A DNA stretch of 64,000 nucleotides, taken from contig NZ_BALY01000006.1 in the NCBI RefSeq assembly GCF_000615445.1, forward strand, positions 1 to 64,000. The letters run 5' to 3'. Positions 9,537 to 48,273 of this stretch are shown piece by piece; within the stretch, counting starts at the first letter, position 1, and each line of letters begins with the position of its first letter. Below the pieces are notes generated by a model. It ran no database searches and was not told where the DNA came from. It saw nothing but the letters and a program-made list of their open reading frames with translations. Source of the stretch: Lactobacillus hamsteri DSM 5661 = JCM 6256 (GTDB lineage Bacteria > Bacillota > Bacilli > Lactobacillales > Lactobacillaceae). Made by a program: the position numbers and the translations under genes.

Positions 9537-11306
9537 TTACTTAGCAAGTGATACCCAGTACCAGTTAGGGAAGCCATTACCCATTGACTTGGATGGCTTA
9601 AGTGAGTAACCAGTAAGATTCTTATTAACAGCAGTAATTTGATAGCTGTTTGATACAGGAACAACATAAGCTTGATCAAACATGTACTTTTGCCATTTAT
9701 GGAATGCATTTACTCTGTAATTATTGTTAAATGACTTTTGTGAATCAATTTCATCAAGCAACTTGGTGTTTTCTGGAGTTGCAAAACGACTGTAGTTCAT
9801 TGGAGCATGCTTACCATACAAATCTTGTGGTGAAGGTTCACTTGAAAGTGACCATGCACCCATAAACATATCAACTGATGGATCATCATGTTGAACCTTA
9901 TCGTAGAATGAGTTGAATTCGATCAAGCGACCACCAGTCAACTTAACGTTAAGGCCCATCTTCTTCCATTGTTGGATATAGTTTTGAACAACTGGTTCTT
10001 GAGTTGAGTTACCAGTCATAGCTGCAAGACGAATAGTCAATGGCTTGCCATTAGGTTGTACACGGTAAGTACCCTTCTTCTTGAAGCCTGCTTTATCAAG
10101 GATTTCGTTACCCTTCTTAATGTTATAAGTGTAACCCTTAATATTCTTGTCAAAGTAGTCACCAAATTGTTGTGGGATCAAAGTTGGAACTCTGAATGAA
10201 AGACCAAAGCTGTAACGCTTAGCAACTTGGTTTACGTTCATACCATAAGCAATAGCTTGACGCAAAGCCTTGTTGTTCATCTTAGCATTCTTATCCATGA
10301 CATTTTCGTTCTTAGCAGCATCCCATTTACCAACCTTAAAACCAAGGTAGGAGTATGATAATGGAATAGTGGCGATAAAGTTAACACCCTTGGTGTTCTT
10401 AACGTTTTGCCATTGTGAGTTGATAACTTGAGTTACGTCAAACTTCTTAGACTTAATTGATTGAGCAACTGAGTTTGGTGAAATAACTGAAGCAACAATC
10501 TTCTTAATCTTTGGAGTACCTCTCCAGTAGTACTTGTTAGGAACCCAAGTTACTGATTGACCACGAACAACTTTAGCTAACTTGTAAGCACCAAAGTAAA
10601 GAGGCTTCTTACGGATCTTGTCGCTTGACATCAAATCAGCAAACTTAACATCCTTTAAGTAATGATATGGAGCTGCGGTTTCCCAAATATAACCGTTACC
10701 TGATTGGTTCATACCTGGCTTCATAGTCTTAAAGTGTAAAACAATCTTGCGGCCATTTTCACCATCTGGCATTTCAATACCTGAAATAGTGTTTGACTTA
10801 CCTTCATGGTATTCTTTCAAACCAACCAATTCAGCTAAACTTGAAGTGTAACGTTGTGACTTAGTTGCCTTGTTAGCAATAATTTCATATGCGTATTCGT
10901 AATCTTTAGCATTAACTTGCTTGCCATCTGACCACTTAACGCCCTTCTTAATATTGATAGTAACAGTCTTGGCCTTTTGATCAACATCAATAGTAGCTGC
11001 ACCTTTGTTAGTGAACTTGTAAGTATCGTCAGTAGCAAATAAGCTTTCTGCACCATATTGAGCTACTTCAGTATCAGTAGCACTTGTAGCAAGTTCGTCA
11101 TTGAAAATACCAGTAAATGGAGTATCTGTTTCAACGGCAACCTTAACTGTACCACCGTTCTTAGCAGGCTTAGTTGGAACTGCTGAACTAAACTTAGCAG
11201 CAGTCTTTGATTCATCGCCTGCTCTATTTGAATTACCACAAGCAGCTAAAGTAAGTGCTACTCCTGATAATAATGTAATGCCAGCAAAAATCTTGGCTTT
11301 TTTCAT
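9537..11306 (-). CDS. oppA: Oligopeptide ABC transporter substrate-binding lipoprotein OppA (distal copy)
   Basis: 589 residues from the ATG at 11306, which has GAGGAG upstream; an in-frame upstream ATG at 11357 lacks a site and would bury the signal peptide. The N-terminus is a lipoprotein signal (MKKAKIFAG..., lipobox L-A-A-C), so the protein is anchored outside the membrane. The body is a family 5 extracellular solute-binding protein that captures peptides for OppBCDF. It is clearly paralogous to the adjacent copy: shared stretches include ETDTPFTGIFN, KGVKWSDGKQVNAKD and RLIEFNSFYDKVQ. Own terminator on each side suggests separate control of dosage from the permease genes. Confidence 0.93.
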   Translation of the reverse strand: MKKAKIFAGITLLSGVALTLAACGNSNRAGDESKTAAKFSSAVPTKPAKNGGTVKVAVETDTPFTGIFNDELATSATDTEVAQYGAESLFATDDTYKFTNKGAATIDVDQKAKTVTINIKKGVKWSDGKQVNAKDYEYAYEIIANKATKSQRYTSSLAELVGLKEYHEGKSNTISGIEMPDGENGRKIVLHFKTMKPGMNQSGNGYIWETAAPYHYLKDVKFADLMSSDKIRKKPLYFGAYKLAKVVRGQSVTWVPNKYYWRGTPKIKKIVASVISPNSVAQSIKSKKFDVTQVINSQWQNVKNTKGVNFIATIPLSYSYLGFKVGKWDAAKNENVMDKNAKMNNKALRQAIAYGMNVNQVAKRYSFGLSFRVPTLIPQQFGDYFDKNIKGYTYNIKKGNEILDKAGFKKKGTYRVQPNGKPLTIRLAAMTGNSTQEPVVQNYIQQWKKMGLNVKLTGGRLIEFNSFYDKVQHDDPSVDMFMGAWSLSSEPSPQDLYGKHAPMNYSRFATPENTKLLDEIDSQKSFNNNYRVNAFHKWQKYMFDQAYVVPVSNSYQITAVNKNLTGYSLKPSKSMGNGFPNWYWVSLAK

Positions 11307-11383
11307 TATTAAATTCTCCTCTATTAATGAAGCAAGTTGATACTTTAATGTTAGCACTATTACAAATTAGTTACAATCAACAA

Positions 11384-11414
11384 AAACAGGCACTTCATTT
11401 CGAAATGCCTGTTT
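11384..11414 (-). terminator. Terminator between the two oppA genes
   Basis: AAACAGGCA / TGCCTGTTT hairpin with a T run on the minus strand, between the proximal oppA stop and the distal oppA start. Confidence 0.8.
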
Positions 11415-11496
11415 TCTTGTTAGTTAATGGAATTTATATTGTTATGAAAGTTTCAGTAAAGGATTAATTTTGTGTTTGTGATTGTTGGAAAGTTTA

Positions 11497-13248
11497 TTAC
11501 TTGTTAAAGCCAACCTTGTACCATACTGAGTTAGCATCTGATGGTTTAAGTGAGAAGTTACTAATCTTGCTATTTACAGCACTAATTGAGTAACTATTAG
11601 TCATTGGAACAACGTAAGCTTGATCATCCATGTATTTTTGCCACTTGTGGAATGCATCTACTCTGTAGCTATTATTGAATGACTTTTCAGAATCAATTTC
11701 GTCAAGCAACTTAGTATTTTCCTTAGTATTGAAGCGACTAAAGTTAAATGGAGCATGTGCTGAGTAAAGATCTTGTGGTGAAGGTTCACTTGAAAGTGAC
11801 CATGCACCCATAAATACGTCAACTGATGGATCATCATTTTGAACCTTGTCATAGAATGAGTTAAATTCAATCAAACGACCGCCAGTTAATTTAACATTAA
11901 GACCAATCTTGTGCCATTGTTGAATGTAGTTTTGAATAGTTGGTTCTTTAGTTGAGTCACCAGTCATAGCAGCCAAATGAATTACTAATGGCTTACCATT
12001 AGGTTGTACACGCCACTTACCCTTCTTCTTGTAACCGGCTTTATCAAGCAATTGGTTAGCCTTCTTCAAGTTGTATGGGTAACCCTTAACGTCTTTATCA
12101 AAGTAATTATTAAATTGTTCAGGAATTAAAGTCGGAATGCGGAATGACAAACCGTGAGTATAACGCTTAGCTACGGCATCAATGTTCATTGCATATGCCA
12201 TAGCTTGACGCAATGACTTATTGTTCATCTTAGCCTTAGGATTTTCAACGTTTTCGCCGTTCTTCCATTTACCAACCTTAAAGCCCATGTAGCTGTATTC
12301 CAAAGGAACTTTAGCTACAAAGTTAACATTCTTAGTACCCTTAACTTGGTCCCATTGACTATTGATAACACCAGCAATATCAAACTTATGACTCTTGATA
12401 GCTTGAGAAGCTGAGTTAGGGTTAACAACTGAAGCAGTAATCTTGTTTAACTTAGGAGTACCTCTCCAATAGTACTTATTAGGAACCCAAGTAGTAGATT
12501 GACCACGAACAATTTTACTTAACTTGTATGGGCCAAAGAACATAGGATTCTTACGGATCTTGTCTGAAGATTGAAGTTTATTAAATGGAACATCCTTCAA
12601 GTAGTGGTAAGGACTTGCACTTTCAAGGAAGTAACCGTTACCTGATTGAAGCATACCTGGCTTCATTTGCTTAAAGTGAATTACAATCTTACGACCATTT
12701 TCACCATCTGGCATTTCAATACCTGAAATAGTTTTAGCCTTACCATCGTGGTATTCTTTCAAACCGACAATATTTTGAAGTGAGCCAGTATAACGTTGGG
12801 AAGCTGTACCCTTGTTAGCCATAATTTCGTATTCATATTCAAGGTCCTTAGCGTTAACTTGCTTACCGTCTGACCACTTAACACCCTTCTTAACTTCGAT
12901 GGTAACAGTCTTTGCTTTTCTATCAAGCTTAAAAGTTGCTGGACCTTTATTATTGATCTTGTAATTATCATCAGTATCAAATAATGATTCGTTACCAAAT
13001 TGCATTACATCTGAGTCAGTAGCAGTTGTTGAAAGTTCGTTATTAAAAATACCAGTAAATGGAGTATCAGTTTCAATAGCGTAACTTAATGAGCCACCTT
13101 TTTTAACAGCTTTAGTAGGTGTGGCTTCTTTAAATTTCTTTGCGTCACTTGCACCTGAATTATTATTACTCTTATTGCCACAAGCAACTAATGATAAAGC
13201 TGCTGCAGTAACAATACCAATTGAGCCTAAGAGCTTGGAAGTCTTCAT
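11497..13248 (-). CDS. oppA: Oligopeptide ABC transporter substrate-binding lipoprotein OppA (proximal copy)
   Basis: 583 residues with a lipoprotein signal ending L-V-A-C and a Ser/Asn-rich linker, then the family 5 solute-binding fold. Ribosome binding site GGGGG lies 11 nt before the ATG. It directly follows the permease gene oppC, the position of the canonical oppA, and the downstream oppA is presumably a tandem duplicate that diverged. Extended identity across motifs such as GLKEYH.GK..TISGIEMPDGENGRK shows recent common ancestry. Two binding proteins sharing one permease would widen peptide range or raise capture capacity; specificity differences are inference. Confidence 0.93.
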   Translation of the reverse strand: MKTSKLLGSIGIVTAAALSLVACGNKSNNNSGASDAKKFKEATPTKAVKKGGSLSYAIETDTPFTGIFNNELSTTATDSDVMQFGNESLFDTDDNYKINNKGPATFKLDRKAKTVTIEVKKGVKWSDGKQVNAKDLEYEYEIMANKGTASQRYTGSLQNIVGLKEYHDGKAKTISGIEMPDGENGRKIVIHFKQMKPGMLQSGNGYFLESASPYHYLKDVPFNKLQSSDKIRKNPMFFGPYKLSKIVRGQSTTWVPNKYYWRGTPKLNKITASVVNPNSASQAIKSHKFDIAGVINSQWDQVKGTKNVNFVAKVPLEYSYMGFKVGKWKNGENVENPKAKMNNKSLRQAMAYAMNIDAVAKRYTHGLSFRIPTLIPEQFNNYFDKDVKGYPYNLKKANQLLDKAGYKKKGKWRVQPNGKPLVIHLAAMTGDSTKEPTIQNYIQQWHKIGLNVKLTGGRLIEFNSFYDKVQNDDPSVDVFMGAWSLSSEPSPQDLYSAHAPFNFSRFNTKENTKLLDEIDSEKSFNNSYRVDAFHKWQKYMDDQAYVVPMTNSYSISAVNSKISNFSLKPSDANSVWYKVGFNK

Positions 13249-23343: not shown

Positions 23344-23406
23344 GCTCTAAGAAGATTCTGATACATCCTACTGTCTACTTGACAGGGAATGTATCATTCT
23401 TAGAGC
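23344..23406 (-). terminator. Terminator carrying a 38-bp insertion in its apex
   Basis: Outer stem GCTCTAAGAA (23344-23353) / TTCTTAGAGC (23397-23406), with A/T runs outside. Without the insertion the hairpin would have a loop of about 4 nt and terminate the minus-strand gene at 23422. The inserted segment has inverted ends that extend the stem. Confidence 0.85.
23359..23396. mobile_element. 38-bp miniature derivative of the IS3-family element at 46 kb
   Basis: Starts TGATACATCC and ends with 29 bp identical to the right end of the IS at 46198-48065 (CTACTGTCTACTTGACAGGG then AATGTATCA). Flanked by a 3-bp direct repeat TTC (23356-23358, 23397-23399), the duplication size of the full element. 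No coding capacity. Interpreted as an internal deletion product or minimal end-only element mobilised in trans. Confidence 0.75.
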
Positions 23407-44716: not shown

Positions 44717-46075
44717 TTATTTTTGTATTTTGTAATCAATAGATTGATTGCCTTCATATGCCGGAAGTCCCATTTCCGCACGATAAAGTGCTCTTTCAAA
44801 TGATTGATATCCCTTGCTAGAACTTACTGCAAATTTCGCACCGTATTTGCTGGCAAATTCACGAATGTTCCAAGTTGAATCATGAGCGGCAAAGGCGGTA
44901 ACTAAAATTACGATATCCAAATCTTTAATTTGATTTTCCATAACCTTCTTTTTGCCTTCAAAAGCATCAATTGGAATTGGAATCCCATTATAGCGAGTTA
45001 CAATTCCTTCTAGCATAGCTTCATTTTGATTATCGCCAATCGCAATTCCGACTCTTTGATAATGAAGATCCATATCTAGCTTGCTTAATTCTTCATTATT
45101 TTCTGATTTATCTTTATCCTTTTTCTTCTTTGCAGCATTACTATGCTTAGGCGGATCAACTTGATAAATCCAACGAATTTGTACAGCATCAGCAGGGTTC
45201 TTTTTCAAGCGGACATCCCCTGTATACCAAGCTAAATCAACGATTGATCCATCCTCCAAATGAATATTTTCTCCCTGATAATAACTTGAATCGACAGGAA
45301 TAGTTACTGCTTTGCCACGAATTCGTAATTTTTCGCCGCGAATATTGCGAGTAATTGCCAATTGTCCCTGCTTACCTTGGACAACAGCATATTTAAAGTC
45401 TTCAATCTGATCATAATCACGAGTTCTCAATTTTCTAAAACCGACAACTCGTAAGATTTCGGCTTCATAATTTTGATTAGTATTATCTTCCAACGCTTCA
45501 ACAATATCGCCACTCTTTAAATTTAATGAATGAATTTGTGATTCTTTAACTGTATATACCGTCTCACCATTATCATTAATTAAATCTGCACCTGAAACCA
45601 ATCGAATAATTGTATAACGTTCACCCTTACGATAATCGCGTTTGGGCTTGGGAGCTGATTTCATTGCTTCTTTGAAAATCTTAGAATTCACTGCATCTTT
45701 TGTTTCAATTGATTTTTGAATAGCTTGATCAAGCTGCCCCAACTCAGTACCAAACTTTTTGCCGACTCCCGGAATAAAAGTTAATTTATGAAGAGCTGAC
45801 AAAGATGTATTTTTTGCAGCCGGGTCACCGGGAGTTTCAATTAATTTAGTTAATCCCCGCAAAAATTGTTTTATTTCCTTATTATATGCATTATTTTGTG
45901 CAATACTTGCCGTATTCGCCGGCTTTTTCGTCTTCTTAGTACTTGTAGCAGTTTTATCATTATCTGCCATTGCGACAATAGTCTTAATGGCTGCCAAACT
46001 ATTTTCTAAACTCTTATCATCACTATCTGTTTTTAATAAAATTCTTTTAATATTATTTCTATAATCAAACATCAT
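44717..46075 (-). CDS. DUF2325 domain protein, function unknown
   Basis: 452 residues. N-terminal helical region with Lys/Thr-rich linker; a middle beta-rich part; C-terminal DUF2325-like Rossmann module (LDIVILVTAFAAHDSTWNIREFASKYGAKFAVSSSKGYQSFERALYRAE). A segment FIPGVGKKFGTELGQLD near residue 100 resembles a helix-hairpin-helix. No signal peptide or membrane helix, so probably cytoplasmic. Seen widely in lactobacilli to my knowledge; role unknown. The second of the two tandem ATGs (46072) has better spacing from GGTGAA. Confidence 0.75.
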   Translation of the reverse strand: MMFDYRNNIKRILLKTDSDDKSLENSLAAIKTIVAMADNDKTATSTKKTKKPANTASIAQNNAYNKEIKQFLRGLTKLIETPGDPAAKNTSLSALHKLTFIPGVGKKFGTELGQLDQAIQKSIETKDAVNSKIFKEAMKSAPKPKRDYRKGERYTIIRLVSGADLINDNGETVYTVKESQIHSLNLKSGDIVEALEDNTNQNYEAEILRVVGFRKLRTRDYDQIEDFKYAVVQGKQGQLAITRNIRGEKLRIRGKAVTIPVDSSYYQGENIHLEDGSIVDLAWYTGDVRLKKNPADAVQIRWIYQVDPPKHSNAAKKKKDKDKSENNEELSKLDMDLHYQRVGIAIGDNQNEAMLEGIVTRYNGIPIPIDAFEGKKKVMENQIKDLDIVILVTAFAAHDSTWNIREFASKYGAKFAVSSSKGYQSFERALYRAEMGLPAYEGNQSIDYKIQK

Positions 46076-46269
46076 TTCACCAGCTTTTTAAAAAATCGTT
46101 CTTAATAGCACTATTATATACTTACTTTTAATAATTAAAAATATCGATTCATTATTAAAGCAGATAAGTTGTCCAAATGAAAAAGACCTTCAACATCTGA
46201 TACAATCCCACTAAAGTGGACAATTGAAATACATAAAGTATTCAATTATTCACGAAGGTGGGATTTTTT

Positions 46270-46998
46270 ATGTCTAGAAAAAGCAAGTATTCATTTAAAC
46301 AAAAGAAATGGGCCGTTGAACAGTACTTGAATGGAAAGATGAGTGCTGTTGAAATATCCAGACAACTTAAGATGCCAGGAAAATACGGAAAAGATCAAGT
46401 AACCACATGGGCTCACCGATATCAAAGCAGCCAGGATGCTTTCTTAAGCAATGCCAAATATAATGCGCATTACTCTAAAGAATTCAAAGAAAAAGTTGTG
46501 CAGGAATACTTAAACGGCAATGGATCGCTGCTTTCTTTAGCCAACAAGTATGGGATTAGAAGTCAAGAAACAGTAAGAAAATGGGTTTCCAAGTATAATA
46601 GTCATATAGAAAATCGGGACTATGATCCCCATCCGGAGGCCCATATGACTAAAGCAAGAAGAAAAACTTCCCAGCCAGAAAGAATCAAAATTGTTCAGTG
46701 CTGTCTTGATCACGACAAGAACTATTCACAAACCGCGGCTAAATTCAAATGCTCTTATCAACAAGTTTATAGCTGGACACAAAAATATCTAGCTGACGGT
46801 GAGGCTGGCTTAGCAGATAAACGAGGCAAACGCAAGCAGCCAGAAGAACTTAGTGAGCTAGATTTAGCCAACCGCAGAATCAAAGAGCTGGAACGAAGGC
46901 TGAAAGAGGAACAAGCCAAGAATGAATTCCTAAAAAAATTAGATCAACTAGAAAGGATGTGCTTGCCGGACAGCCAAAATATAGACAAGCCGCAATAA
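46270..46998 (+). CDS. IS3-family transposase OrfA
   Basis: 242 residues from ATG 46270, seven nt after AAGGTGGG; an upstream GTG at 46258 lies inside that site. Contains three helix-turn-helix modules in tandem (YSFKQKKWAVEQYLNGK, YSKEFKEKVVQEYLNG, PERIKIVQCCLDHDKNYSQTAAKF), each followed by a W-rich segment, then a coiled coil ending ELERRLKEEQAKNEFLKKL. Longer than usual OrfA because of the repeated HTH. Binds the element ends. A slippery A-AAA-AAA (46932-46938) permits -1 frameshifting into OrfB. Confidence 0.92.
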   Translation: MSRKSKYSFKQKKWAVEQYLNGKMSAVEISRQLKMPGKYGKDQVTTWAHRYQSSQDAFLSNAKYNAHYSKEFKEKVVQEYLNGNGSLLSLANKYGIRSQETVRKWVSKYNSHIENRDYDPHPEAHMTKARRKTSQPERIKIVQCCLDHDKNYSQTAAKFKCSYQQVYSWTQKYLADGEAGLADKRGKRKQPEELSELDLANRRIKELERRLKEEQAKNEFLKKLDQLERMCLPDSQNIDKPQ

Positions 46999-47999
46999 AG
47001 AAACGCTGGAAAATAGAAACATATCAACTAATTCATGATTGCCATCAAAAATACAATTGGAAGATTGATCTAATGTGCCGGTGGGCTAAAATAGCCCGCT
47101 CAGCCTATTACAAATATTTTGATCCTCAACGTCAATCTAGTCAGCGTGATGAGCGAGATAAAAGGATTGAAGCTAAAATTATCGAAATAGCTCAGTCTAA
47201 CAACAGTCTGTTCGGGACGGAAAAAATGACTATGGCTGTTAATCGCCAAATGCCTGATGAAAAGCCAGTTTATCATAAAACTGTTTACCGCTTGATGCGC
47301 ATTAACGGCATCAGCTCCCAAAAGCCCAGATATCAGAAGCCTAAATTCAAGCATACAACGCCTGAGAAGACAGCCGAAAACAAACTAAAGAGAAACTTTA
47401 ATGCTTCTAAGCCTAACGAAAAATGGTGTACGGATATCACCGAGATCACTGCTCCTAACTTGCCTAAGGCATATCTTTGCACGATCTTTGATCTTTATGA
47501 TCGATACCCTGTAGGTTATGCAATCAGTAAGCGCAACGATACTGCCTTGGTTCAATCAGCTTATAAGCAAGCCATTAAAGCTTATCCGAATGCCCACCCG
47601 CTCTTTCATAGCGATCGCGGCTTTCAATTCACTCGTGCGCCTTTCCAAAATCAGTTAGAAAAGCAAGGCATGATCCAATCTATGTCGCGTGTTGGCTGCT
47701 GTATTGACAACGGTCCAATGGAGGGCTGGCAAGGCATCATTAAAGAAATGCGGGTTGTTCTTCATTCTCAACCAGCGAGCTATGATGAGCTTAATGCTTC
47801 TATCTGCAAGACTATTGACTATTACATTAATGAGGATCCACAGAAACGTTTTAATGGGCTAACAGCTGGTGAAATGCGAAGAGAAGCACTTAAAGACAAT
47901 ATCAAGAGTTGTCCTATTGCACCAAATCATCGAATTGAAAGATACTGGCAAAAGATACACGAAAAGAAAATTAAAGAAGCTAAAAAAATCCTCAGCTGA
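46959..47999 (+). CDS. IS3-family transposase OrfB (DDE integrase domain)
   Basis: 346 residues. HTH_21 region then rve core with DD(35)E: Asp in NEKWCTDITEIT, Asp in HSDRGFQF, and Glu in NGPMEGWQG, 35 residues after the second Asp. Intact, so the element may be active. The frame is -1 to OrfA; it could be made as a fusion of about 576 residues by slippage at the A7 run, or from the GTG at 46959 with GAAAGGA upstream. Confidence 0.93.
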   Translation: MLAGQPKYRQAAIKKRWKIETYQLIHDCHQKYNWKIDLMCRWAKIARSAYYKYFDPQRQSSQRDERDKRIEAKIIEIAQSNNSLFGTEKMTMAVNRQMPDEKPVYHKTVYRLMRINGISSQKPRYQKPKFKHTTPEKTAENKLKRNFNASKPNEKWCTDITEITAPNLPKAYLCTIFDLYDRYPVGYAISKRNDTALVQSAYKQAIKAYPNAHPLFHSDRGFQFTRAPFQNQLEKQGMIQSMSRVGCCIDNGPMEGWQGIIKEMRVVLHSQPASYDELNASICKTIDYYINEDPQKRFNGLTAGEMRREALKDNIKSCPIAPNHRIERYWQKIHEKKIKEAKKILS

Positions 48000-48093
48000 T
48001 TAATAATCAACTGAGGACTAAAAATTTTATGTAATTCTACTGTCTACTTGACAGGGAATGTATCAATCGTTGAAGATCTTTTGGAATTTTTAA

Positions 48094-48273
48094 TTAAGCT
48101 CTCCATTCACCGTTATTGCCGTATGAATGCTTGCCTAATTCATTAATAATAACGTGGATATGTTCCTTAGGAGCACCAGTATCGTTATGAACTGCGTCGG
48201 TAACATCCTTCATTAACTTAGTTAATTGTTCATCGGTTCTGCCCTTAATTAATTCAATATGTACAAATGGCAT
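48094..48273 (-). CDS. 4-oxalocrotonate tautomerase family protein
   Basis: 59 residues, too short for a default gene call. [16 protein letters not shown] has the family's catalytic Pro as residue 2 (amino-terminal after Met removal), and the small beta-alpha-beta subunit ends [11 protein letters not shown]. Tautomerises enol/keto substrates in related enzymes; the substrate here is unknown. AAGGAGA site. 34 bp after the ECF gene, possibly cotranscribed. Its terminator is split by the IS. Confidence 0.9.

Follow-up and report, generated by a model that had tools for sequence, protein, structure and literature searches.

Results

An IS3-family element in the loop of a predicted terminator

Between a DUF2325 gene and a tautomerase gene of Lactobacillus hamsteri, an insertion sequence (IS) separates two short stretches of DNA that would pair as the arms of an intrinsic terminator. 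Is this position a coincidence, a product of selection on the host, or a target that the transposase chooses? The locus lies in a window of 64,000 nucleotides (the whole stretch of DNA that was analysed), and its features are as follows.

44717..46075, minus strand: DUF2325 gene on the far side of the insertion (reading frame and domain reading)
46181..46197, no strand assigned: left hairpin arm AAAAGACCTTCAAC (46181-46194) and left copy of the target site duplication (TSD) ATC (46195-46197)
46198..48065, plus strand: complete IS3-family element of 1868 bp, TGATACA...TGTATCA, TSD ATC
46204..46269, plus strand: left-end RNA hairpin AATCCCAC...GTGGGATT with a T tract after it, immediately 5' of orfA (-26 kcal/mol, z -5.4)
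46258..46998, plus strand: orfA, at most 246 aa with a likely ATG start at 46270; multiple helix-turn-helix domains
46932..46938, plus strand: A7 run in the sequence upstream of the orfA/orfB overlap
46959..47999, plus strand: orfB, 346 aa, IS3 transposase catalytic domain with D159, D219 and E255 as DD(35)E
47987..48019, minus strand: inward-facing terminator-like hairpin at the right IS end, 15-bp stem followed by T7 on the minus strand (z -6.9)
48066..48082, no strand assigned: right TSD copy ATC (48066-48068) and right hairpin arm GTTGAAGATCTTTT (48069-48082)
48094..48273, minus strand: tautomerase gene whose predicted terminator is split (reading frame and domain reading)

The element has the hallmarks of the IS3 family, namely a DD(35)E transposase with 35 residues between D219 and E255, overlapping reading frames in -1 register with an A-rich run, and 5'-CA-3' ends with a short TSD. 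Target duplications in this family are usually 3-5 bp. OrfB scored 230 bits against the NCBIfam model transpos_IS3 (cut-off 160) and matched Pfam rve and HTH_21, and the terminal inverted repeats agree at 20 of 26 positions (32 of 40 over a longer span). Judging from its sequence and placement, the A7 run is probably a -1 frameshift site that fuses orfA to orfB. The left-end hairpin, on which the simple terminator detector made no call, is probably an attenuator against transcription entering from outside, and the right-end hairpin would stop transcripts coming in from the tautomerase side. No near match was found in the phage collection.

Removal of the IS together with one ATC copy rebuilt a 14-bp stem whose 3-nt loop is the duplicated ATC itself. 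Thirteen of the fourteen pairs are Watson-Crick; the remaining one reads C.A in the plus transcript and G.U in the minus one, and the folding energies are -13.0 and -17.0 kcal/mol, respectively. The hairpin starts 11 nt past the tautomerase stop codon, whose end is at 48094, and carries a U5 tail on the minus transcript. The target thus has the stable stem-loop and the U tract after a gene that define an intrinsic terminator, and it is placed where it is predicted to terminate the tautomerase gene. This agrees with the original prediction of an element lying exactly in a hairpin loop that serves this gene. The span then given, 46188-48082, starts within the left arm, whose first base is 46181. 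The simple terminator scanner is blind to the split hairpin, and its calls here are sites inside the IS only.

Empty sites and related copies

The prediction also expected that unoccupied versions of the site would bear the hairpin. A search for empty sites gave a match of some kind in 69 of 75 genomes, and the best 11 loci of other species were compared. The 3' end of the tautomerase gene could be aligned in five of those best 11, and four of the five had a hairpin call at the equivalent place, though their stem sequences are unrelated. In two related genomes (L165 and L169) the tautomerase and DUF2325 genes are adjacent, the hairpin is intact and there is no IS, as had been expected. The hairpin is weaker and imperfect in the fifth alignable locus, L172; at L164, which has a hairpin call, the direct neighbour of the tautomerase gene is not DUF2325. 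A DUF2325 gene was not found in the empty loci L168 and L172.

The genome that carries the window also holds a second element, 66% identical, at 71 kb of contig C76, together with a 151-bp right-end fragment (C49), a 23-bp right end (C75), additional left ends (C70 and C73) and a micro-copy within the window:

23359..23396, plus strand: 38-bp gene-free micro-copy with both IS ends, TSD TTC

T tracts occur in the outward flanks of the C49 and C75 pieces, the micro-copy and the C76 element. The micro-copy lies 2.5 nt off the apex of a terminator hairpin, AAAAAAGCTCTAAGA..TCTTAGAGCTTTTT, so the second terminator case predicted at 23 kb is real. It makes the host hairpin longer, giving one long hairpin of -35.4 kcal/mol. 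Palindromic micro-copies of 37, 38 and 71 bp (L063, 23359-23396 and L097) all lie within terminator-like hairpins, which they extend into single hairpins of -31.5 to -63.4 kcal/mol for the strands that were folded. These three pieces suggest a MITE-like family. The micro-copy in the window is downstream of a small gene that presumably encodes a protein resembling ribosomal protein L28. Elsewhere in the window, 9817-13086 holds two tandem copies of a region, ~1.9 kb apart and 76-85% identical over the matched pieces.

Insertion points and hairpin apexes

To place the tautomerase site among others, copies were collected and their empty sites rebuilt. A site was called apex-positive when the stem score was at least 20 and the apex lay at most 4 nt from the insertion point. 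The window set comprises copies from Lactobacillus, one from Erysipelotrichaceae and one from Ureibacillus, the last placed by the OrfB tree with the near relatives. The near relatives share 34-43% OrfB identity; 17 of the 24 loci L139-L162 were used, a choice made after seeing the data, leaving out L139, L154 and L158 (ends not sought), L142 (contig edge) and L140, L144 and L145 (no credible end pair).

Among sites with a 3-4 bp TSD, the insertion point was at an apex in 6/6 of the window set and 10/12 of the near relatives, compared with 94/4000 intergenic and 44/4000 random positions. One locus, L045 (40% OrfB identity), is counted in the window set and grouped by the tree with the near relatives; moving it changes the counts to 5/5 and 11/13. 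With the TSD ignored, 8/12 and 12/17 sites were apex-positive. At the intergenic rate, 16/18 would have a probability of ~1e-24 if the sites were independent, which not all of them are, so that the value shows scale only. The near relatives include related copies (four in G149, three in G572 and two in G723), and since a number of the elements and of the targets share descent, the effective sample is smaller than the counts imply.

Flank pairing gave the same picture. When the matched flanks of the 12 two-sided sites of the window set were joined, stem scores ranged from 7 to 38.5, with eight of the 12 at 26-38.5. The 132 mismatched joins averaged 10.7 and reached at most 22, below all eight high-scoring matched joins. 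The pairing of matched flanks and the apex counts across sites rule out a coincidence at a single site. The low-scoring sites L007, L020, L030 and L043 have neither hairpin nor TSD; because all four lack the TSD, and judging after having seen them, we infer that they are recombined copies. Among the near relatives, the apex-negative sites are L143 and L149, with a TSD, and L141, L146 and L152, without a 3-bp TSD.

A search for the end patterns in 75 genomes found 41 right ends in 15 genomes and 42 left ends in 16, and the reversed control pattern was found in none of the 75. Eighty distinct Lactobacillus ends remained after dropping the loci outside the genus (L038-L046) and near-identical flanks. 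TTTT occurs within 30 nt of 69 of these 80, compared with 22.5% of random positions, and at a distance of 10-19 nt for 55. In a later plasmid set, for which 11 of 39 records were used, all six sites with paired ends and TSD spanned a terminator-like hairpin and four of them were at the apex, L337 and L338 being off-apex. The ends or TSD of L333, L334, L335, L339 and L340 were unclean; L340 was apex-positive, L335 had no hairpin and the other three were without a call. Together, these results support the conclusion that the elements choose hairpin apexes, to an extent far above any intergenic bias, and the copies are not random with respect to hairpins.

Comparison with other IS groups

Copies of ISL3 elements and of other IS3 groups served as controls. 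The 14 ISL3 copies with a clear 7-8 bp TSD, drawn from 35 sites in all (6 terminator-like, 1 apex), spanned a terminator-like hairpin in 5/14 cases and lay at an apex in 1/14; the ends of the ISL3 groups of G001, G059 and G118 are unsure, and IS256 was left out as its boundaries could not be fixed. Since ISL3 reaches 5/14, a loose terminator call says little by itself. Nearness to terminators is partly common to other IS, which makes the apex the specific signal.

In thirteen further IS3 groups, 42/69 sites lay in a terminator-like hairpin, often off-apex in a stem arm, and twelve of these groups had at least two such copies; the background was 87/3000 random and 217/3000 intergenic positions. 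One of the thirteen, group q, is a near relative by the OrfB tree. Omitted from the group count were d (doubtful ends), e (no ends) and L219, L249, L254, r and t (end match below 20/24), and boundaries were shifted after inspection by 5 bases on the left side of group h and 8 bases on the right side of group o. The view that IS3 elements generally lack a preference for target structure, voiced in the original prediction, is not supported in light of these counts and of the known REP-targeting IS3 elements. The converse idea, that most IS3 groups choose apexes, likewise lacks support, with 15/52 apex sites among those with a 3-4 bp TSD in the thirteen groups, and 0/9 in groups f and s, where 7/9 sites span a hairpin.

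Groups l (G686) and o (G118) spanned terminators in 0/12 cases and lay at an apex in 1/12 (1/8 with TSD), the right end of group l being based on a weak repeat (15/24). Their genomes also carry terminator-associated IS3 groups. Both groups fall outside in the OrfB tree, on long branches whose join may be false.

Two further arrangements were observed. In groups f, g and s (L215, L216, L224, L286 and L287) the insertion lies in one arm of the terminator stem, not in the loop, as if in another register. In G004 the ends of L085, L120, L121 and L093 directly abut a 23-bp stretch that resembles the end of another IS3 element; several copies share this arrangement and their outer flanks differ, pointing to a nested or composite element.

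Recognition of the target

If apexes are chosen, what is read there? Stem sequences differ among the Lactobacillus target sites, which speaks against a transposase that reads sequence, be it T or A tracts or some loosely symmetric AT-rich motif, and for which the hairpin would be incidental. The TTTT distances given above fit such a reading, as does the T or A tract that adjoins the stem in all eight apex-positive sites of the window set. In G149 (Lactobacillaceae), all four near-relative copies (L147, L157, L161 and L162) have a REP-like palindrome as their target and lie at its apex; this genome has 29 half-sites of the palindrome, GCCGAGCACTGGAGCYC, with at most 2 mismatches (reversed control 0). 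At L147 a single side matches in full (15 of 15 bases, compared with 9 of 15 on the other). An A tract adjoins the stem at L157. No T or A tract does so at L147, L161 or L162, and the same holds for L155 in another genome, so that 4/10 apex-positive near-relative sites with TSD are tract-free. Because three of the G149 apex copies have no adjoining tract, it seems to be the hairpin that is read and not the tract, and we regard sequence reading as distinctly unlikely. The original prediction that terminator apexes are chosen therefore holds for the apex, and a terminator as such seems unneeded.

A paused RNA polymerase, an R-loop or an RNA hairpin might instead attract the transposase, in place of the DNA dyad. 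Terminators are the usual target and no site lies between divergent genes (0/25; see below), as expected if transcription guides insertion. However, REP-like palindromes without an adjoining T tract, which may or may not end transcription, are also used, and a DNA dyad accounts at least equally well for the precision at the apex and the small size of the offsets; on balance we think such coupling unlikely. Recognition of a dyad or cruciform is favoured over recognition of a T tract or recognition coupled to transcription.

Survivor bias, by which insertion occurs anywhere and only intergenic copies past stop codons persist, would place copies between convergent or tandem genes, where the window-set and near-relative copies are found, and ISL3 elements from partly the same genomes do lie in terminator-like hairpins at 5/14 clear-TSD sites. 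Survival, however, needs no apex within 4 nt, and neither intergenic positions (94/4000) nor ISL3 copies (1/14) approach the 6/6 and 10/12 seen here; in addition, IS3 groups l and o span terminators at 0/12 sites. As the sole cause, survivor bias is rejected on apex precision relative to the intergenic and ISL3 controls, and we hold this explanation to be very unlikely.

Gene neighbourhood and inward-facing hairpins

Neighbouring genes could be read from open reading frames at 25 of the 28 window-set and near-relative sites combined: 14 pairs are convergent, 11 tandem and none divergent. The corresponding numbers are 32, 32 and 5 for the other IS3 groups and 2, 7 and 3 for groups l and o. This is consistent with the predicted safe haven, in which insertion would spare host genes, as are the inward hairpins described next.

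An inward terminator-like hairpin was found at the right end of 26/27 elements (some of them copies of one element), compared with 5.1% of random windows, and by the simple detector at the left end of 15/27, compared with 3.8%. Read outwards, the right-end stretch gave such a hairpin in 1/27. Hairpins of this kind are not confined to the present elements, since ISL3 groups also have them (right end 3/5, left end 2/5, some ends being unsure). From these structures, we infer that the IS may substitute for the terminator that it breaks.

Discussion

We consider it likely that this IS3 copy-out/paste-in element inserts at the apex of hairpin-capable DNA dyads, mostly intrinsic terminators, and that its own hairpins replace the broken one. 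The site statistics show that the transposase selects the apex of dyads able to form a hairpin, and it is probably the dyad or an extruded cruciform that is sensed. Intrinsic terminators would be hit most often because, in low-GC Gram-positives, strong hairpins between genes are probably terminators more commonly than anything else. Joining of the element ends across the loop, with a spacing of ~3 bp, would account for the 3-bp repeats that are observed. The host terminator is split by the insertion, and the element supplies an attenuator-like hairpin on the left and an inward terminator-like hairpin on the right. With these inward hairpins, transcripts from either side should stop within ~100 nt. 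The expected outcome is that genes are spared, promoters tend to be avoided and the element's own transposase is silenced.

We give an even chance to a wider reading, in which a broad Firmicutes IS3 lineage is structure-specific. It would read a dyad of any sequence, insert in the loop and swap a two-way terminator for an inward pair in a nearly transcription-neutral manner, with REP targeting by IS1397 as a special case. Safe-site integration is widely relevant, and at stake is how a DDE transposase might read shape instead of sequence. Since intrinsic terminators are diverse in sequence and uniform in structure, these elements open structure-guided transposition to direct tests. Targeting would be a cause, besides selection, of IS accumulation between convergent genes, and terminators may wear out, be replaced or, through micro-copies, lengthen in this way.

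Among known systems, the named IS3 elements ISEnfa5 and ISSau2, OrfB relatives identified through plasmid annotation, resemble the element at 41.3% and 35.9% OrfB identity. IS150 of E. coli is also of the IS3 family but occupies a separate, neighbouring OrfB branch together with other terminator-associated groups (the tree is midpoint-rooted and its deep forks are unsettled); a copy in E. coli K-12 lies between mokA/hokA and sokA remnants. Hairpin terminators at the 5' and 3' sides inside IS ends are known as "mobile attenuators" (PMC2965389), and the accessible part of that paper draws no link to insertion into terminators. Class C (IIC) group II introns target intrinsic terminators, which is discussed in the available text as self-regulation that limits proliferation (PMC3522654). 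In contrast to our DDE transposon in the loop, those are described there as retroelements whose insertion site lies downstream of the stem-loop. Hairpin targets are not discussed in the accessible sections of the IS1447 paper (PMC6211511), and within the open-access literature, the scope of our search as opposed to subscription papers, no report of an IS that targets intrinsic terminators was found. REP targeting by IS3 elements is already known; on the evidence of this open-access literature, terminator-aimed IS3 insertion appears to be new.

A close parallel is IS1397, which inserts in the loop of the REP palindrome. The available text of PMC1525189 gives experimental evidence for REP selection by IS1397 and ISKpn1, and reports 5/5 ISPsy8 copies of one genome in REP elements; like our element, all three are IS3-family members inserted inside extragenic palindromes. 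Elements of the IS1397 type target one conserved REP sequence, whereas the insertions described here share the palindrome apex but, outside the repeated palindrome of G149, no single conserved repeat, their stems being unrelated in sequence and mostly those of intrinsic terminators.
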